This document shows, in pieces, positions 13,731 to 26,209 of a DNA stretch of 42,844 nucleotides. The notes under the pieces were generated by a model. That model made no database searches. It was not told the origin of the DNA and saw only the letters and a list, made by a program, of their open reading frames with translations. Within the stretch, counting starts at the first letter, position 1, and each line of letters begins with the position of its first letter. The DNA comes from an uncultured Aureispira sp. (GTDB taxonomy: Bacteria > Bacteroidota > Bacteroidia > Chitinophagales > Saprospiraceae). Made by a program: the position numbers and the translations under genes. The stretch covers positions 1-42,844 of the forward strand of contig CAJQQM010000066.1 of assembly GCA_905480485.1 (NCBI GenBank). Reading direction: 5' to 3'.

Positions 13731-14612
13731 ATGCCTATAATAGCCCTTTTATACATTTTTAGTTTGTTATTTTTGAAAGATACACAAGCTCAGGACCTAC
13801 AGAATACAGCCTTGAAATTTAGTGTAAACGATAGCTTATTCGTTGAAGTGATCAATGGACAACGCTATTTAAGACACCGACTTAAAAAAGGTCAAACGTT
13901 GTATGCTATTTGTACGTTTTATTCTGTTAAAATATCTGAGCTTTATTTTAACAATCCTAGCTTGGAAGTAAACGACCTTAAAATTGGTCAAATCATAAGA
14001 GTTCCTATGCTTCGTGCAGCGCTATTAATTGATCAAGACGCAACACAAAACCCGTCTAATTACCTCCCTATTTATTATAAAGTCAAACCCAAGGAAACAC
14101 TTTATCGTGTTGCTAAAATACATTTTCAGATACCCGTAGAGGAATTAAAGGGAAGAAATGCTTTATCTGACAATGCCTTAAACGAAGGCATGCACCTTAA
14201 GATAGCATGGATTAATGCCCGTGGGATACCGGATAGTTTACAGGCCAACCAAGGTTTGAGCGGCCTTTTAGGAGAAGAAAGTCAACGCAACCAAAAACTA
14301 TACAAAGCATCTTACAACGGCCGGAACGAACAACTCGCTGAAGGAATTGCATGTTGGGATAAACAGATGCAACTTTCTTCCAAAAACAAACTATATGTCA
14401 TGAGTTCAATTGTCAAGAAGGGAAAATATATACGCATCGACAACCCTATGACAAAACGTTTTTTGTATGCAAAAGTGGTAGCCACTAAACCTCAAAATTC
14501 TTTCACTAAAGACGCACTGATAGTTTTGACACCAACAGTTGCAAAAGCATTAGGCGCTTTGGATGCGCGATTTTTTGTCCGAATATTTTATTGTGAAGAA
14601 AGCCCTAATTAA
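13731..14612 (+). CDS. secreted protein with two LysM domains
   Basis: The 293-residue protein has a short signal peptide (about 1-21, ending Ala-Gln) and two LysM modules. The first is around residues 42-94 (LKKGQTLYAIC ... LKIGQIIRVP) and the second around 117-164 (VKPKETLYRVAK ... NEGMHLKIAW). LysM binds the glycan backbone of peptidoglycan. The C-terminal 75 residues (about 215-290) look like a compact beta domain similar in layout to a double-psi beta-barrel (RlpA-like), but the RlpA catalytic aspartate cannot be placed confidently. No hydrolase motif is otherwise seen. It lies 30 bp after the OmpA-family gene. Its stop codon overlaps that of the opposing lipoprotein gene in a shared TTAA. 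Confidence 0.85.
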   Translation: MPIIALLYIFSLLFLKDTQAQDLQNTALKFSVNDSLFVEVINGQRYLRHRLKKGQTLYAICTFYSVKISELYFNNPSLEVNDLKIGQIIRVPMLRAALLIDQDATQNPSNYLPIYYKVKPKETLYRVAKIHFQIPVEELKGRNALSDNALNEGMHLKIAWINARGIPDSLQANQGLSGLLGEESQRNQKLYKASYNGRNEQLAEGIACWDKQMQLSSKNKLYVMSSIVKKGKYIRIDNPMTKRFLYAKVVATKPQNSFTKDALIVLTPTVAKALGALDARFFVRIFYCEESPN

Positions 14613-15100
14613 TCGTTGAAACATTGAATATACAAAGGAGCGGTCTCTATTTCGTTCGACCAACGACCGGCAATGTCTTTGATACGAATTTTGAAGACAA
14701 CAGGATCGTAAAAATCAGCAACATCCTGACAAAGAATTAAAGGATTGCTCGGGTTGATGCAACAAAGCTGAGACATCGTTACATCTATCTGCCCAGAAAT
14801 ACCACTCACCACGCCTTGTGGTTCGATTGTAGGAATCTGGTAAAACAAGGTGTCATTAGGTGTTCTTCGCGTATCTACAATGATAATATGACTTGTTGTA
14901 TCGTTGTCTCTACCCAAATCACCATCGCCGTCCGTAAAGCCTATTTCAAAGGTAACAATACCATTAAATTGTCTAATTGTATCCTCTGAGAAACCAACCC
15001 ATTCAATCGTAGGTGTGTCATCGTAAATCGGGGGTTTGTCACAACTTGTCCAGGTTAATAAAGAAAAAGCCAAAATTCCAATTAAAAATATATATTTCAT
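14609..15100 (-). CDS. lipoprotein, paralogue A of a tandem pair
   Basis: The 163-residue product has a lipoprotein signal with lipobox Leu-Thr-Trp-Thr-Ser-Cys (Cys20), so it is expected to be lipid-anchored. The mature part contains FTDGDGDLGRDND, an acidic loop resembling a calcium-binding turn, a Cys-Cys-Ile-Asn-Pro motif in the second half, and a closing segment FKIRIKDIAGRWSN before a final Cys. The same three landmarks in the same order occur in the neighbouring gene, so the two are clearly paralogues from tandem duplication. I do not recognise a named domain; the fold is probably Ig-like beta. It starts 25 bp after the paralogue ends, and both are likely transcribed together. Confidence 0.8.
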   Translation of the reverse strand: MKYIFLIGILAFSLLTWTSCDKPPIYDDTPTIEWVGFSEDTIRQFNGIVTFEIGFTDGDGDLGRDNDTTSHIIIVDTRRTPNDTLFYQIPTIEPQGVVSGISGQIDVTMSQLCCINPSNPLILCQDVADFYDPVVFKIRIKDIAGRWSNEIETAPLYIQCFND

Positions 15101-15125
15101 AGTTATCGTTACTAAGTTTAAAATG

Positions 15126-15602
15126 CTAGGATGTGCAATCTAAAGTTATGATTTCGCTATTAATTCGATTACTGTAATTACCTTCATTATCAACAATTTG
15201 AATTTCAAACTGCATAGTACGATTCGGAAACAAGGGCTGTACATAACAAGATGAACTATCCGGGTAAATACAACATGGCGCAAAAAGCAATATAGATACA
15301 ACACCACTACTTTTGTTATTGTTGGGGTTTAGTCCCAAAGAAGCAGGTATTTTAAAACTAGCAATATTCAATCCAGTTCTTGAATCTGAGACAAAAACAT
15401 TGTTAAAAGTATCAGATCCTATGTTTCCATCCCCATCTTCGAAAGAAAAGCTCAGAAATACAGAATCTTGTGCATTTTGTTGTAGGTAAGTTTGAGAAAC
15501 AGAAACATACTCGATATAGGGCACAGAAGATAAACGTTCTTTACAAGAAAAAAACATACAGGAATACAAAAGGATAAAAAAAGATAGTAAATTTGTAGTC
15601 AT
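15126..15602 (-). CDS. lipoprotein, paralogue B of a tandem pair
   Basis: This 158-residue protein begins with a hydrophobic signal and a lipobox-like Cys (Phe-Phe-Ser-Cys, Cys20). It then has FSFEDGDGNIGSD, Cys-Cys-Ile-Tyr-Pro and the closing FEIQIVDNEGNYSN ... Cys, matching paralogue A landmark for landmark, although the remaining sequence has diverged strongly. The acidic Asp-Gly-Asp-Gly-Asn loop may bind calcium; that is inference. It is first of the two-gene unit. Its start codon lies only 22 bp from the start of the divergent LuxE-family gene, so the promoters of the two directions must overlap coding sequence. Confidence 0.8.
   Translation of the reverse strand: MTTNLLSFFILLYSCMFFSCKERLSSVPYIEYVSVSQTYLQQNAQDSVFLSFSFEDGDGNIGSDTFNNVFVSDSRTGLNIASFKIPASLGLNPNNNKSSGVVSILLFAPCCIYPDSSSCYVQPLFPNRTMQFEIQIVDNEGNYSNRINSEIITLDCTS
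15588..15595 (+). promoter_or_regulatory. candidate -7 promoter box of the LuxE-family gene
   Basis: TAAATTTG is an exact match to the Bacteroidota -7 consensus TAnnTTTG. It would start transcription about 20 bases before the ATG at 15625. It lies inside the first codons of the divergent lipoprotein gene, as the 22-bp gap between the two genes demands. No clear -33 TTG was found. Confidence 0.4.
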
Positions 15603-15624: not shown

Positions 15625-16620
15625 ATGAAAAACAACTACCAACAAATCAAAGAAGCCATACGCAAGGTCGATACGCATTCTTTTGAAGCGGTAGCCTTAG
15701 AAGTTTTTGAATACCAAAAACAAAATAACCCTCTTTACCAAGAATTCATAAATTTACTTGGTCTTTCCAACAAAAACATTCAACAAATTGAAGACATTCC
15801 CTTTTTGCCCATTCAATTCTTTAAGTCGAAACAGATAAAAACGGGTCAGTGGACTACTAGTCATGTCTTTAGTAGTAGTGGCACTACACAAACTACAACT
15901 AGTACACACCATCTAAAATCGGCCGAATGGTATAGAGAAAATAGCTGTCGATTTTTTGAGCAACAATATGGTCCACTCGAAAATTATATCGTACTAGCAC
16001 TACTCCCCTCCTATCTTGAACGCAAAGGGTCTTCGCTAATTTTTATGATAGATGCATTTATCAAAAATAGCAAGCATCCTCTAAGTGGTTTTTTTCTTTA
16101 TAATACGCAACAACTCAAAGAAGTGTTGAGCTTAAGCGCCAAAGAAAACAGAAATATTTTATTGGTAGGTGTTAGCTATGCCCTTTTGGATTTGATTCAA
16201 GACTATGACTTACAATTAGAACGCTTAGTGGTTATGGAAACCGGCGGGATGAAAGGTAGACGCAAGGAAATGACCAAAGAACAATTACACACGACTCTAA
16301 AAAAGGGATTTAAACAAACTTCAATACATTCAGAATATGGGATGACAGAATTATTGTCGCAGGCCTATTCTAAAAAAGATGGTATTTTTACGCCCTGCCC
16401 TACCATGCAGGTCTATATCCGAGAAATCAACGACCCTTTTTGTATGGCCACGCTAGGCAAAGTCGGGGCTGTAAATGTTGTCGACTTACTCAATATTGAT
16501 ACATGTAGTTTTGTCGCAACAGACGACTTAGGTAGAAAATACGAATCGGGTAATTTTAGTTTGCACGGACGTAGTGATGTATCTGATTTGAGGGGTTGTA
16601 ATTTATTACTTTTGGAATAA
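15625..16620 (+). CDS. LuxE-family acyl-protein synthetase
   Basis: The 331-residue protein matches the acyl-protein synthetase LuxE family, relatives of adenylate-forming enzymes. Visible landmarks are the N-terminal segment IPFLPIQFFKS (about 58-68), the Ser/Thr-rich nucleotide loop FSSSGTTQTT (about 82-91), Glu-Thr-Gly-Gly-Met-Lys-Gly near 204, SEYGMTELLSQAY near 237, and a final Gly-Arg-x-Asp before the C-terminus. The family activates a carboxylic acid with ATP and can transfer the acyl group to a protein or thiol. In luminous bacteria it serves fatty-aldehyde synthesis, but no luxA, B, C or D neighbour exists here; in Bacteroidota the family is found outside lux operons and its substrate is unknown. 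It is cytoplasmic. Confidence 0.88.
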   Translation: MKNNYQQIKEAIRKVDTHSFEAVALEVFEYQKQNNPLYQEFINLLGLSNKNIQQIEDIPFLPIQFFKSKQIKTGQWTTSHVFSSSGTTQTTTSTHHLKSAEWYRENSCRFFEQQYGPLENYIVLALLPSYLERKGSSLIFMIDAFIKNSKHPLSGFFLYNTQQLKEVLSLSAKENRNILLVGVSYALLDLIQDYDLQLERLVVMETGGMKGRRKEMTKEQLHTTLKKGFKQTSIHSEYGMTELLSQAYSKKDGIFTPCPTMQVYIREINDPFCMATLGKVGAVNVVDLLNIDTCSFVATDDLGRKYESGNFSLHGRSDVSDLRGCNLLLLE

Positions 16621-17613: not shown

Positions 17614-19746
17614 CTAAAACTTGGCCCGTATTTGCACTTTTATTTCGGAACGCGTCGCTGCATCAATCTCGTTAAGGCCCGAACTAATAACAGAACGATC
17701 GGTAAAGTAGGTTTGTGAAAAGCGTAGCCACAGACTGAAGTTTCGGTTAATTTTGTAGCTTACATTAAAATAATAGCGTAATCCTTGTCCGTAATAAGGT
17801 AAAACAGAAAAAGCGTATAACACATCATTCTCGAAGGCATAAATACGGGTGTCGTAGTTGTCGGTATCGAAAAAGGCAAGTCTTGTTTGTATTTTCAGAG
17901 GGATTTTTTTGGGCTTAAAAATTAAATCCTGGTAAATGACAAAACCTTTATTGAATGATTGGTTTTGATAAAAAGAAAACTCAATTCTAGATCGTATAGA
18001 AAATTGACTCGATACATCGTAGGCTAAATGTGCGCGCAAGTTATGCCGATTGTGTTTAATAAGTTGATCAATATTAGTGGTGTTTCCCGACAAATTACGG
18101 TCTTTTTGTTCGAACCTATATTGAAGATAAGTACTTAGATAATAGTTGGGGGCATAATCAAGTTTGCCAAAAATTTCATAGCCACGACTTGGGGCATCTG
18201 TTTGAAATCGAAGCCAAGGGAATTGAAAAAAATCAAAATAGGTGCTGAACTTAACTCCTTTCCCCAAACGTGTTTCTAGGCCAAAATAAAGGCCTGATTC
18301 ATTTGATGCGTCCGAAGACTCTCCAAAAGCATTGCCATTAAGCGTATAATATTGTGGCGCATAATAGCGATGCACCAGTGCAAAACTCACTCTAGGGTCT
18401 AGATCGGCTAAAATAGAATTTATAGTAGCTAATCCGCCCTTTTCGTTGATAGCTGTTTCGCCAAAAAACTGAAGATTGCGATACCTAAACGAATAATCAA
18501 GGCTTGCATTGACGGTTTGATTGCCCGAAAATTGATATTTTTGATACAAGGAGGTATTGTCCCTTACCAATGGGTTACTTAGGTAATTGTGTACAAAGTT
18601 TCCTGCTACATGCCAAAATTTACCTTTATACCGCAGGCTTGCGCCAGAGGTTACCATTCCAATAGCATTTTCATCTTCTATCTCCGAAGCTGTACGATGA
18701 AATCCTATTTCTTGTAGCGAACTAATTTCTACATCCAAATCTTCTACTAATGAATCAATAGCTGATTTAAGGTTGGCATCTCTTGTTCGATAGGACCCAA
18801 ATACCGTTATTTCTAAGTTATTTTCAGGTAGAAATTGGAAATTAGCTGCTGCACCTCGCAAAAATAAAGCTTCGTTAACCGAAGAATAAGGGCGAATCGG
18901 CAAAGACATCCGTTTAACATTGAGTACTTGTGCTCCTTTTCGTGTTCCAAAGCCTCCCCAAATTGTAAGACCTTGCCCAAAATAGACTTGAAAATCTCCG
19001 AGGGCAATCGAATGAATATTTTTACTTACTTGTTTTAGATAAAAATGGCCTGAATAATAATCAAAGCCTTGTTGGTTAGAACCCGTAAAAAATTCTTCCC
19101 CTGCGTCTTTTTCCATCGTCAAACCTAAACTCATGCGATCTTTATAAGACATTTTGTAACGCAGATATAGTTTATCTGCTGACCCCAAATAGCGGGTTCC
19201 GGTTTCGCCGGGTTGGAGCGGCCTAAAGCCTTTTTGAGTTTCTAAAATACGTTGATAACGTGCAAATATTTGATGCCGCCCCCATTTAAACATTCGTTTA
19301 AAATTCAATTTTTCGAGGGCCTTGGATTTTTCTACCTGGACATAAGGACTTAGTCTTAAAATTGTTCTCAAATCAAAGGTAGGAACTCCTTGCAACTCAT
19401 AAAGCGAAAAGATTTGGCCGAAGCGTTCTCGATAAAGCAGTAAAGCCTGAATTTGAATCGCTGTTAACAAACCAAAATCGGTTAATTGCTGTTCATTAGC
19501 CTGATTTAAATCTAAGGGGTTTTTTTGAAAGGCTTCTAAGTATTCAAATTGGGTGTCAAAATCAAAGTCCTCTGCATCATTATCTGCCACTATGTTCTCT
19601 ATCAGAAACTGAGTTGAATTAGAAACTTCTGCTTCTTGAACCGATTTATCTTGTTTGTTTTGAGCAAAACACCAAGACGTAATAAACACTAGCAAAAGTA
19701 AATTTGCCCCTTTATTGATGAATAGGTATAGCCAATTAAGATACAT
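17614..19746 (-). CDS. helix-hairpin-helix domain fused to outer-membrane beta-barrel
   Basis: The 710-residue protein has a signal peptide (about 1-29). A ComEA-like helix-hairpin-helix region follows at about residues 72-140, with Leu-Asp-Leu-Asn-Gln-Ala-Asn opening, Tyr-Arg-Glu-Arg-Phe-Gly and Leu-Tyr-Glu-Leu-Gln-Gly-Val. Then come about 550 residues of alternating amphipathic strands rich in Tyr, Phe and Arg, ending in a terminal Phe, the classic signal for barrel insertion by the BAM complex. HhH motifs bind DNA backbone non-specifically in ComEA and repair proteins, but may also serve as protein-binding modules. This layout recurs in Bacteroidota as proteins of unknown function. It begins 5 bp after the PorV/PorQ-like gene, so the two are one transcriptional unit. 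A role in moving DNA or another polymer across the outer membrane is speculation. Confidence 0.85.
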   Translation of the reverse strand: MYLNWLYLFINKGANLLLLVFITSWCFAQNKQDKSVQEAEVSNSTQFLIENIVADNDAEDFDFDTQFEYLEAFQKNPLDLNQANEQQLTDFGLLTAIQIQALLLYRERFGQIFSLYELQGVPTFDLRTILRLSPYVQVEKSKALEKLNFKRMFKWGRHQIFARYQRILETQKGFRPLQPGETGTRYLGSADKLYLRYKMSYKDRMSLGLTMEKDAGEEFFTGSNQQGFDYYSGHFYLKQVSKNIHSIALGDFQVYFGQGLTIWGGFGTRKGAQVLNVKRMSLPIRPYSSVNEALFLRGAAANFQFLPENNLEITVFGSYRTRDANLKSAIDSLVEDLDVEISSLQEIGFHRTASEIEDENAIGMVTSGASLRYKGKFWHVAGNFVHNYLSNPLVRDNTSLYQKYQFSGNQTVNASLDYSFRYRNLQFFGETAINEKGGLATINSILADLDPRVSFALVHRYYAPQYYTLNGNAFGESSDASNESGLYFGLETRLGKGVKFSTYFDFFQFPWLRFQTDAPSRGYEIFGKLDYAPNYYLSTYLQYRFEQKDRNLSGNTTNIDQLIKHNRHNLRAHLAYDVSSQFSIRSRIEFSFYQNQSFNKGFVIYQDLIFKPKKIPLKIQTRLAFFDTDNYDTRIYAFENDVLYAFSVLPYYGQGLRYYFNVSYKINRNFSLWLRFSQTYFTDRSVISSGLNEIDAATRSEIKVQIRAKF

Positions 19747-19751
19747 TTAAT

Positions 19752-20600
19752 TTATTTTTCCTTAGGTTTTGTAGAACTAGAAGCAAGCGCATAACTAACC
19801 GACAAAGATGGACTTAAACCTAGTGTCGTATGATAACTAGTCGCTATATCAATACGTAATGCCTTGATTTTAAGGCCTAATCCAAAAGAAGCTACTACTG
19901 GCGTTGTAGCAACTCCTGCACGTATGTACAAAACTTCAATGACTTGATATTCTATACCAAATTTAGCATTAAACGGTTGTATTAAATCTTTTTCAACCTC
20001 GGCTGTCAACCGCAATTTTGAGGAAGGAAGATAGGCTATACCTATTTTAAATACAGAAGGCAAGGACTCTCCATTTGGCAATTCGATGCGCGCAGGACTA
20101 AAAACATGTGCCGCTATATGTAATTGTTTGCTTATTTTGGCCAAAACTCCCAGTTCAAAGGTAAAGGTATGTGCGCTGCCATAGTAATTATTGCCAAAAC
20201 GAGTGCCTATGTAATTAAATTGAGCACCAATTGATAAGCGCTTAAATAATTTCCTTGCGTAGGAAAGACCAATTTTCTGCTCATTGTAAGGCCCATATCC
20301 GAAATAATGTACAGACAATCCCACGGTGCCTATTTTTTGGTGCGGATATGCAGCACCAAATAAAAAAGAATTAAGGCCATCAGCCACTAAAAATCGTCTT
20401 TCCCCAAAAACAGTAAACGACAGTTCTTCGAGAAAACCTAGACCTGCCTGATTGCTAAAAATACTATTAATATCGGTAAAGGTAAGGCTAGTATTCGCCA
20501 TTGCAGCACCCCTGGCACCCGCACTTTGAGGGATACCGTTCTGAGCTTGAATTTGCAGAGATATAACGAAAAATAAGAATCCTGAAATTATTCTAAACAT
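19752..20600 (-). CDS. PorV/PorQ-like outer-membrane beta-barrel protein
   Basis: I start the gene at the ATG at 20600, giving 282 residues, because the signal peptide Met-Phe-Arg-Ile-Ile ... Gln-Ala-Gln begins there; the frame extends upstream to a TTG at 20624, which would add eight unneeded residues. After the signal comes the PorV/PorQ-type opening: Ala-Gly-Ala-Arg-Gly-Ala-Ala-Met-Ala-Asn-Thr, then Asn-Gln-Ala-Gly-Leu-Gly. It continues with regularly spaced strands ending in Gly-x-Tyr or Ile-Gly patterns. Members of this superfamily include the type IX secretion shuttle PorV and PorQ, but many homologues have other or unknown roles, so I do not assign a symbol. It lies 5 bp upstream of the HhH-barrel gene and 402 bp from the divergent folE. 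Confidence 0.78.
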   Translation of the reverse strand: MFRIISGFLFFVISLQIQAQNGIPQSAGARGAAMANTSLTFTDINSIFSNQAGLGFLEELSFTVFGERRFLVADGLNSFLFGAAYPHQKIGTVGLSVHYFGYGPYNEQKIGLSYARKLFKRLSIGAQFNYIGTRFGNNYYGSAHTFTFELGVLAKISKQLHIAAHVFSPARIELPNGESLPSVFKIGIAYLPSSKLRLTAEVEKDLIQPFNAKFGIEYQVIEVLYIRAGVATTPVVASFGLGLKIKALRIDIATSYHTTLGLSPSLSVSYALASSSTKPKEK

Positions 20601-21002
20601 AATACTATGAAGGTTCAAGGCCAAACAATAAGAGCGCTACTGAACTATTTTAATCAACTGCTTTACAGGTAGATAAGTTAGTTGTTAGGCGACAAATTGT
20701 CCTTTTTAATTGATTTAACTACAAAATGCGGAAACTCTATCAACAATCCAAGCTATTTCGTTATAATTTTTGTAAATTTACATCATTCCAAAACAGCCTC
20801 AAGTCTTCTGCATATAACATCTTTCTTTTAGACAGCTATTTAACCTAACTGTTTGTTTTTAATTTCAACTTGAACTATTTTTTTAGATTATTGTTAGTAT
20901 AATTGAGCAATCCGAAATATTAATCTTTTACAAAACCCATTTCAATCACACCCTTGTTCAATTTTTTAACCCGGACTATTTTGTCCCTTAAACCGACCAC
21001 AA
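20601..21002. other. divergent intergenic region between the PorV/PorQ-like gene and folE
   Basis: This 402-bp gap must hold promoters for both directions. It contains a perfect 12-bp palindrome at 20771-20782 and a near-palindrome GACAA-A-TTGTC at 20692-20702. No gene, RNA or known riboswitch architecture is visible, and I find no box matching TAnnTTTG exactly on either strand. Confidence 0.5.
20771..20782. promoter_or_regulatory. 12-bp perfect palindrome in the divergent region, possible operator
   Basis: TGTAAATTTACA is fully self-complementary and lies about 170 bp upstream of the PorV/PorQ-like start and 220 bp upstream of folE. Its position between divergent genes suits a regulator site, but nothing identifies the regulator. 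Confidence 0.3.
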
Positions 21003-24253: not shown

Positions 24254-26209
24254 TTATTGCTTTAAGAATTTCAATTGTTCCATTAGTTGCCCCTTTGCAT
24301 CGAGTAAACTCACAAAATAGATACCTGCAGGATAATTGACAGTAGAAAGCACTTGAACATAATCATCCATATACACAAGACGCCCAAAGGCATCAACAAT
24401 GCGCAAATGATAGGACTGCAAAGGGTCGGGATGACTTAATTGAAACTGAACCTTGCTGCCGACAGGGTTAGGGTATAAAAGCAATTGAGGCTTGGTTACT
24501 TCTACGTTTTGGATTGGAATTAAGGTAAAGGAAGAATCGCCCCACAATAAAGGACGAATCATAACCGAACCTACAAGACTCATCGTATCCCAAGTAGAAC
24601 CTGTTCCAACAAAAGTTTTGGCGCGGGCATCGGTACTTCTGTCAAAACCGACCGGTACTTCAGGACCAAAGGATTGCTGCCAGCCCACATAAAATTTTTG
24701 ACCAGGTTCTAAATGTATCAAAACTTTTTGCCCCGAAAAATCAAGTAATTCAACAAAAAAGAAACCATTAAACCCATCTACATACTGCAAACGATACAAA
24801 TCTCTTGAAAATGCTTCTTGCCCCGTCAACGAATCTAACCAAACCTTTACGTTTATAAAATCTAATTGAGCATCGCGATTGGTAAAGTAAGGTAAATGAA
24901 AATAAATACCTTGTAGGGTATCTTTTACCTCCGCTACAAATTCTACAGCTACTTTTGTTCCTAAACCTTGTGCAATGACCCTTGTTTCGGCAGTACCGTC
25001 GTCGTAGGCAAAATAGTTGTCAAGCTCGGTATAGGTACAAATCGTGTCGTTGTCAAAAAATATAGGATTGTTTTGAAATCCTGTAGGTGCCAAAATGGTA
25101 TACGTAGATTTTAAGGTTGTTTTTTCGGTCGGCACAAAAGAGGTGCTAAAAGTATTGTTGAGCCTGTGTCCACCCTTGTCATCACTGTTTGGGCTAGGCA
25201 AATAGGATGCTACTGCAGGAATAGCTTCTGATAGTAGGAGATTGCTGTTTGGTGCCGATTCTTCAACTTCGTACAAGCGATCGAGTGTCGCTACTCCGGA
25301 TAAATCATTGTGATTAAAATTTTCTATGACAAGACTGTCGTTCCAAGAATCATTGCTGTTAAAATGTTTCCATGGCATTGCAGTATAACTATTTTTGAGC
25401 GGAGTTTTGGGGCGATGCGTAAACGCAACATCTGAATACCTTCCGTAGTTGCTATTAGATGTATCTGCATTGTTCGACCTATTTTCATCGATGTAAATAT
25501 AGTCTAGGTGCCAATGATCGTTATTGCCAGAAATAGAGGCTAAGTTCCTAAACCGAAACTGAAAGCCTTTGTAAAAATATGCCCCACTATCGACAAGAAT
25601 ATAGTGTTGCTGAAATACCGGAACAGCTAAGGTAGATAGCGAATCTGCTACACCAGGCACCGACCAAACTAAATTCCAAACATCGCTGCTGTCTTTAAAT
25701 TCAAGAATTAAAGAATCCCGTTCTTCAGGGCGATCCGACAAACCTTGTTTTTGGTAATAAAAGCTTAGATATACTTGATCACTAATTGATTTACCTGACA
25801 TATCAAGATGCTGAGAACTGAGCGTATCCGCCGGCGAACCTACAGAAACCGAAGCATAGACATTGTAAGGGCTTCCATCGTGTGAAAGGCCATCAAGTGT
25901 AGCCACCCCTATCGAAGGAGGGTTCGAAGCCATATCAAAATTGACGAATGCATGATTATCTTGCCATAAAGCGCAATTTGGATAGATAGAATATTCCGCC
26001 GAAAAATCATCAAAGAAAGGAAGACTCAACGTATCTATTGAACAAACTTGGTTGTTTCGAGCAGTAATATTATGTGTAGCTTGCCGTGCTTCAATCAATG
26101 TAGGATTGTTTTCGAGGGCTTGTAAACGTAAATGTTGCGCTTGAACCCCGAAGGTAAGCGTAGCAAGCATTAAGGTAAAAAAGCAATAGAGTTTATTGTA
26201 ATTTATCAT
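24254..26209 (-). CDS. secreted protein with type IX secretion sorting domain
   Basis: The 651-residue protein has a signal peptide (about 1-24, ending Val-Gln-Ala-Gln) and a C-terminal Por secretion sorting domain of about 75 residues. That domain opens with LLLYPNPVGSKVQFQLS and contains the conserved VDAFGRLVY and YPAGIYFVSL, the signature for export by the type IX system and surface attachment. The body is beta-rich, with an N-terminal segment Leu-Pro-Phe-Phe-Asp-Asp-Phe-Ser typical of large Bacteroidota secreted proteins and a lectin-like region around 60-230. No catalytic residues are recognisable. A -7 box match sits on the minus strand at 26298-26305 without a clear -33 box. Confidence 0.9.
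   Translation of the reverse strand: MINYNKLYCFFTLMLATLTFGVQAQHLRLQALENNPTLIEARQATHNITARNNQVCSIDTLSLPFFDDFSAEYSIYPNCALWQDNHAFVNFDMASNPPSIGVATLDGLSHDGSPYNVYASVSVGSPADTLSSQHLDMSGKSISDQVYLSFYYQKQGLSDRPEERDSLILEFKDSSDVWNLVWSVPGVADSLSTLAVPVFQQHYILVDSGAYFYKGFQFRFRNLASISGNNDHWHLDYIYIDENRSNNADTSNSNYGRYSDVAFTHRPKTPLKNSYTAMPWKHFNSNDSWNDSLVIENFNHNDLSGVATLDRLYEVEESAPNSNLLLSEAIPAVASYLPSPNSDDKGGHRLNNTFSTSFVPTEKTTLKSTYTILAPTGFQNNPIFFDNDTICTYTELDNYFAYDDGTAETRVIAQGLGTKVAVEFVAEVKDTLQGIYFHLPYFTNRDAQLDFINVKVWLDSLTGQEAFSRDLYRLQYVDGFNGFFFVELLDFSGQKVLIHLEPGQKFYVGWQQSFGPEVPVGFDRSTDARAKTFVGTGSTWDTMSLVGSVMIRPLLWGDSSFTLIPIQNVEVTKPQLLLYPNPVGSKVQFQLSHPDPLQSYHLRIVDAFGRLVYMDDYVQVLSTVNYPAGIYFVSLLDAKGQLMEQLKFLKQ

Follow-up and report, generated by a model that had tools for sequence, protein, structure and literature searches.

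An outer-membrane barrel with a ComEA-related domain and its FadL/PorV-type partner in Bacteroidota: a candidate port for DNA uptake?

What is an outer-membrane barrel with a ComEA-like helix-hairpin-helix (HhH) domain for, and why is a second barrel encoded directly ahead of it? The question is raised by two minus-strand genes in a 42,844-nucleotide stretch of DNA from an uncultured Aureispira sp. (contig CAJQQM010000066.1, positions 1 to 42,844), the whole of which is called the window here. The pair is confirmed to consist of an outer-membrane barrel with an N-terminal HhH region (the HhH barrel) and, upstream of it, a FadL/PorV-type barrel (the partner). The reading that we favour, with a probability of about 0.42, is that the two genes specify an outer-membrane DNA-uptake port with a companion dependent on the type IX secretion system (T9SS), because in one family the HhH barrel goes with comEC, and the presence of the partner tracks that of the HhH barrel and of the T9SS. 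This joint account is the simplest; the function is our inference from the linkage, and a T9SS-only or an unrelated role is possible.

The features of the pair are as follows.

17614..19746, minus strand: HhH-barrel gene, 710 amino acids with C-terminal Phe (open reading frame, ORF; mostly single-copy family; model)
19752..20600, minus strand: FadL/PorV-type partner barrel gene, 282 amino acids, 14 strands (ORF, PorV_fam score, model)
19747..19751, minus strand: intergenic gap of 5 bp (ORF coordinates)
19663..19746, minus strand: predicted signal peptide, residues 1-28, followed by Gln (our own sequence reading)
19339..19557, minus strand: ComEA-like (HhH)2 region, residues 64-136 (profile match, model, alignment)
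17620..19278, minus strand: outer-membrane barrel, residues 157-709, 24 long strands (DSSP on the model; structure alignments)
19087..19110, minus strand: motif KDAGEEFF, residues 213-220 (invariant or nearly invariant columns)
18967..18978, minus strand: motif GQGL, residues 257-260 (conserved columns in alignments)

Architecture and spread of the pair

The HhH-barrel gene lies directly downstream of the partner gene with 5 bp between them; the partner ORF spans 19752..20624 on the minus strand, and its 282 amino acids are counted from the ATG at 20600. An earlier note, made from the letters of this DNA, had described this two-gene layout with a 710-residue product ending in Phe, and the coordinates and ORFs agree with it. 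The ComEA-like HhH region that it placed in the same protein was recovered as well. The profile of alignment A1 matches the ComEA structures 8dss (E 2e-11) and 8dfk (E 8e-9), and HHH_3 is found at E 0.01 in 24 of the 29 members of A1; the window protein is not among the 24, its own match being sub-threshold (E 0.03, residues 76-136). Judged by these profiles, the N-terminal domain is homologous to the ComEA-type (HhH)2. The residue that follows the predicted signal peptide, Q29, is invariant in alignment A4.

The AlphaFold model of the HhH barrel (mean predicted local distance difference test, pLDDT, 86.8) has 24 strands of at least 9 residues between positions 157 and 709, a count taken from the DSSP list and not from closure in space. 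No curated family matches the window protein above its cut-off, no Bam family matches the HhH barrel up to E 1, and the barrel part finds no PDB chain by sequence, save one at chance level (E 1.3). Pilus ushers are 24-stranded barrels, and the FimD/PapC ushers rank first in VIA-align (six best rows at Z 13.8-13.2, root-mean-square deviation 3.8-5.5 over 357-383 aligned residues, 7-10% identity). TonB-dependent receptors score only 1-2 Z units lower, and since other barrels are so close behind, the likeness speaks for size, not kinship. MtrB, first in Foldseek with a TMq of only 0.38, was not taken as kin.

The partner scores 65 bits against NCBIfam PorV_fam, below the cut-off of 90. Its model (pLDDT 90.6) has 14 strands and N-terminal helices, and its best PDB match is PorV (8gl6_F, TMq 0.73), with FadL next; a search of PDB sequences with the partner profile gave no match. 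With this 14-stranded FadL fold and N-terminal segment, the modelled partner belongs to the PorV/FadL superfamily. The earlier note had called it PorV/PorQ-like. Its scores against the NCBIfam equivalogs PorV, PorQ, PorV2 and BamG (21.1, 18.3, 12.3 and 16.5 bits) are far under the cut-offs (250, 220, 325 and 250), and by score it is none of these proteins proper. The BamG score likewise led us to reject membership of the pair in the barrel assembly machinery (BAM).

With the window sequence as query, the HhH barrel was found in 27 of 30 relatives (in G016 only as a 186-residue frame) and in 157 of 198 genomes of the phylum, mostly once per genome, so the gene is not a chance ORF. The searches confirm a mostly single-copy Bacteroidota family. 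A looser count of 197/198 was not used as presence, as its hits at around E 1e-8 probably belong to other HhH proteins, perhaps Tex-like. The nearest named relatives are in Aureispira and other Saprospiraceae, and records of Parabacteroides distasonis and Bacteroides finegoldii annotate the protein as 'helix-hairpin-helix domain-containing protein'. Sampled genomes of families f15 and f16 and of parts of f13 and f14 gave no full-length match (our guess is that f14, f15, f16 and f27 are Sphingobacteriaceae, Weeksellaceae, Flavobacteriaceae and Chlorobiaceae, respectively). Divergent copies stand beside porD in 14 genomes with a weak or no earlier match (30 bits in G114, 24 bits in G164).

Of the 80 named loci, which were counted as class members by name and similarity, 47 have the partner immediately ahead of the HhH gene and in the same orientation; the gaps range from -53 to 95 bp, with one of 281. 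In 27 loci with at least 1 kb of upstream sequence no partner is found there, and the remaining 6 end too soon to judge. No other neighbour is shared by more than 12 of 78 named loci. The HhH gene lacks an adjoining partner in Bacteroides finegoldii, Phocaeicola massiliensis and one Prevotella record; Parabacteroides distasonis has both genes. Among 30 genomes picked to include unlinked cases, some partner match occurs in 28 (just 24 bits in G036) and none in G031 and G218, and in 12 the partner lies on a different contig from the HhH gene, 10 of these matches exceeding 100 bits. By sequence, then, the pair is real and mostly retained even when unlinked, with exceptions. Its conservation across Bacteroidota, which the earlier note had proposed as a check, is seen in the 47 named loci and in all 41 genomes of f14 that have both genes. 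As a side observation, the gene after the HhH gene is annotated as a radical SAM protein in Parabacteroides and Bacteroides (L222, L223, L225), and the corresponding ORF in Phocaeicola starts similarly.

Links to comEC and to the type IX secretion system

The link to natural transformation comes from family f14, where 61 genomes were searched with thresholds of E 1e-40 for the HhH barrel, 1e-15 for the partner, 1e-50 for SprA and 1e-10 for comEC. The HhH barrel was found in 50, the partner in 44, SprA in 54 and comEC in 58. In 46 of the 50 HhH-positive genomes the HhH match is followed on its own strand, at no more than 1.5 kb, by a domain of comEC, the gene for the inner-membrane DNA channel (exceptions: G245, G257, G268, G277). 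Wherever a genome has both barrels, 41/41, the partner gene immediately precedes the HhH gene. In L202 (genome G151) and L221 the ORFs of partner, HhH barrel and comEC overlap by 1-14 bp when the first start codons are taken. In L221 and L204, both of genus g131, the place between partner and comEC is taken by a divergent HhH gene that had escaped detection. All three genes went undetected in 3 of the 61 genomes (G230, G246, G247); G246 is a single-contig genome, and its three sampled congeners G229, G258 and G269 keep all three. In two genomes without SprA and partner, the HhH-barrel gene beside comEC has one in-frame TGA (G264:C1:3275989-3278010, G281:C1:1185929-1187911), which may be decay or sequencing error.

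The link to the T9SS comes from the pattern of losses. In f14 the partner is kept in 39 of 43 genomes with both SprA and the HhH barrel, against 2 of 7 that have the HhH barrel without SprA (Fisher p 0.001) and 3 of 11 that have SprA without a detected HhH barrel (Fisher 6e-5), both values being uncorrected for kinship. Of these last three, the two that were inspected, G249 and G233, carry a divergent HhH gene in the slot ahead of comEC and behind the partner. Loss of the HhH barrel or of the T9SS tends to be accompanied by loss of the partner. The HhH barrel itself is present in 7/7 SprA-less f14 genomes and was undetected at E 1e-40 in 11 of the 54 SprA-positive ones (G233 and G249 with their divergent copies included); it does not need the T9SS, and it does not strictly co-occur with SprA.

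A wider panel of 80 genomes, chosen and not random, nearly all from the 198 and spanning HhH-positive and seemingly negative lineages, extends this. Its four genomes that lack both SprA and PorD (G031, G092, G100, G202), the three panel genomes of f27 included, retain the HhH barrel without exception, and a partner at E 1e-9 was found in G092 alone; eight genomes of f15/f16 have SprA and no full-length HhH match. Exceptions to the partner pattern are G218 (L217), G036 (L207) and G070 (L210), which have SprA, PorD and the HhH barrel and no partner at E 1e-9. The genome of the window carries PorD and, on a different contig from the pair, SprA. Two further observations concern other parts of the window: a 651-residue protein with a Por_Secre_tail domain (24254-26209, minus strand; E 8e-7) is probably T9SS cargo, and a LuxE-like acyl-protein synthetase (E 1e-6) stands beside two short proteins with no Pfam match (15625-16620, plus strand; 14609-15602, minus strand).

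A possible port for DNA and the competing explanations

The favoured reading would work as follows. The port would have two parts, a pore of about 24 strands with its ComEA-related (HhH)2 domain at the periplasmic end, and the FadL/PorV-type companion in contact with it. The large pore would pass DNA, the presumed substrate, across the outer membrane in natural transformation, replacing the pilus and secretin used elsewhere, and the DNA would be handed onward to ComEC. Lacking phosphate-binding hairpins, the HhH domain would dock a periplasmic partner, either a separate DNA-binding protein or ComEC itself. The companion may be a PorV-like carrier that keeps a surface protein exported by the T9SS, possibly a receptor for DNA, above the pore. 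A broader claim is more tentative still: that the HhH barrel supplies the outer-membrane DNA channel so far missing in Bacteroidota and their relatives, a single chain free of pilus and secretin that unites the ComEA-related domain with a 24-strand barrel, its PorV-like companion being loaded by the T9SS with a surface receptor.

The findings that weigh against a DNA port concern comEC, the hairpins and porD. With a home-made ComEC profile, no comEC was found within the flanks of the 80 named loci or of 40 deep-lineage stretches, and 14 other class stretches gave one match of 12 bits only (L219); the comEC neighbourhood was thus seen in f14 and not in the other lineages scanned. Five f14 genomes of genus g44 keep comEC without either barrel. 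The joint losses in f14 may also be single deletions, about two events, because the three genes adjoin.

The hairpins carry the second point. The GxG of each hairpin marks the backbone contacts of an HhH domain to DNA phosphate. The window protein reads GLLT and PTFD where ComEA reads PGIG and TGIG, with none of the four hairpin glycines, and GxG is gone from both hairpins in all 101 rows counted as class members, the comEC-linked f14 rows included. The lysine that follows hairpin 1 in ComEA is Gln in 94 of these rows, as in the window protein, and the hairpin 2 lysine position holds Lys or Arg in only 17; the window has Arg-Thr there, where ComEA has Lys-Thr. Among 34 deep-lineage rows, GxG occurs in 3 at hairpin 1 (L196, L197, L199) and in 2 at hairpin 2 (L166, L178), the N-termini of L167, L174, L190 and L198 being misaligned and L191 (family f39) not being a class row. 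The net charge of the window domain is -2, equal to both ComEA pieces, and therefore charge does not speak against DNA binding. The available part of one source states that HhH domains typically hold DNA via backbone nitrogens and that in ComEA side chains, including lysines, add to the hold, with a Lys-Thr pair among the modelled phosphate contacts (PMC9747964); the equation of that pair with the hairpin 2 position rests on our own numbering match. Because GxG is lost at both hairpins, the window protein is unlikely to hold DNA directly through its HhH domain, as far as aligned residues can tell. That the domain is kept although its hairpins are lost suggests protein contact.

The earlier note had proposed that the HhH motif contacts the DNA backbone and that the pair transports or captures DNA or another polymer. 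The first proposal is unlikely for this protein, judged by the aligned positions of both hairpins; absence of the GxG-type hairpin contacts was one of the outcomes that the note itself had named as counting against it. The second gains from comEC next to the HhH gene in f14 but loses backbone gripping as its means; a T9SS link through porD had not been foreseen. Its overall interpretation is partly supported.

The third point, porD, leads to the explanation that the pair is a T9SS accessory with no DNA role, a second SprA-PorV-like translocon or a surface-attachment subcomplex with PorD as its periplasmic link. Outside the class, 36 of the 50 porD-bearing panel genomes, from 21 of 27 families, have porD no more than 2.5 kb from the partner, the HhH gene or both, and in 25 genomes all three genes are contiguous. 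The assignment to the porD family (PF16119/NF052317) was above cut-off in 7/7 neighbours tested; 7 of the 50 out-of-class panel matches fall under the family cut-off, and the G033 entry is a 79-bit fragment beside the pair, with the full porD on another contig. The 27 class genomes of the panel, whose coordinates were viewed and not counted by script, have no such adjacency. As accessible in two sources, PorD is described as a periplasmic T9SS subunit that binds PorW/SprE of the translocon (PMC8754138, PMC10994853). The PorV fold of the partner and its absence from 5 of 7 SprA-less f14 genomes fit this explanation too. It is opposed by the HhH barrel's persistence in the SprA-less f14 and f27 genomes, by its occurrence without an adjoining partner in Bacteroides, Phocaeicola and Prevotella records, and by the f15/f16 genomes with SprA and no full-length match; we judge it unlikely, and pure T9SS membership as the sole account was rejected on the SprA-less genomes. 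Near porD in deep lineages, L171 (11753-13771) and L174 (4002-5720) encode a HEAT-repeat protein with a cyclophilin-type prolyl isomerase domain (Pfam), and L173 has a protein with a similar start.

A housekeeping function of the HhH barrel in the outer membrane, as transporter or assembly factor for lipid, polysaccharide or lipoprotein and with comEC and porD as neighbours for historical reasons, is also improbable on our assessment. Such a role would suit a widespread and mostly single-copy gene whose comEC linkage was unseen outside f14 in the loci scanned, and the FadL relative BamG is, in the text available, a structural companion in BAM (PMC12611786, PMC12578637). Yet the HhH barrel is not essential everywhere, given the sampled families without a full-length match, and the comEC neighbourhood is retained across f14. 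That the HhH domain holds DNA in the canonical way at the inner face of the outer membrane, for which its ComEA homology, the few deep members with GxG and the Arg-Thr of the window speak, is very improbable in view of the missing glycines in the window and in every class row.

Comparison with known systems

The DNA-port reading bears on a step that the available text on Porphyromonas gingivalis calls unclear, the route of DNA into the periplasm (PMC11532111), as the pair is widespread, has a ComEA-related domain and neighbours comEC in one family. Transformation of that species requires a ComEA-domain protein and ComEC, the former given as PGN_0421 in the Results and PGN_0419 in the Discussion, with HhH at 94-165 (PMC11532111). 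If this ComEA were a barrel member, a DNA role would already be shown there. Riemerella anatipestifer transformation needs other outer-membrane and HhH proteins (PMC8459023, available part). Identity of the HhH barrel with its RA0C_RS02645, a predicted periplasmic protein with HhH at 236-301, was rejected by description only, as the layout differs (PMC8459023). Our guess is that f15 and f16 are lineages whose transformation uses other outer-membrane proteins. Bacteroides thetaiotaomicron BT3167, which an iron-response table lists as a 'helix-hairpin-helix domain-containing protein' (PMC10434189, available part), may be a member or another kind of HhH protein. A literature search that covered few subscription papers found none that joins 'type IX secretion' with 'helix-hairpin-helix', none on the HhH-barrel family and no description of porD with this locus; porD, a T9SS gene, is now tied to it.

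Among known proteins, ComEA shares the same-family (HhH)2 domain, but it has no barrel and is a small protein, either anchored in the membrane or free in the periplasm (PMC9747964, available part), and both aligned ComEA chains keep GxG in both hairpins. The FimD/PapC ushers are alike as large barrels that give the best structure-alignment rows, and unlike in their low identity to the HhH barrel, with rival barrels close behind. The SprA-PorV translocon also joins a large barrel to a FadL-fold companion, and PorD neighbours the pair in deep lineages; however, SprA frames are mostly ~2,200-2,750 amino acids long and the HhH barrel persists without the T9SS. In BamA-BamG, as far as described in the available text, a FadL-family companion is likewise attached to another barrel (PMC12611786, PMC12578637), whereas the partner in the window is far from the BamG cut-off and no Bam family matches the HhH barrel. 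The arrangement is therefore of a known kind, a large barrel with a FadL-type companion, for which this pair would be the third setting after the T9SS and BAM, and what appears to be new is the ComEA-related domain.

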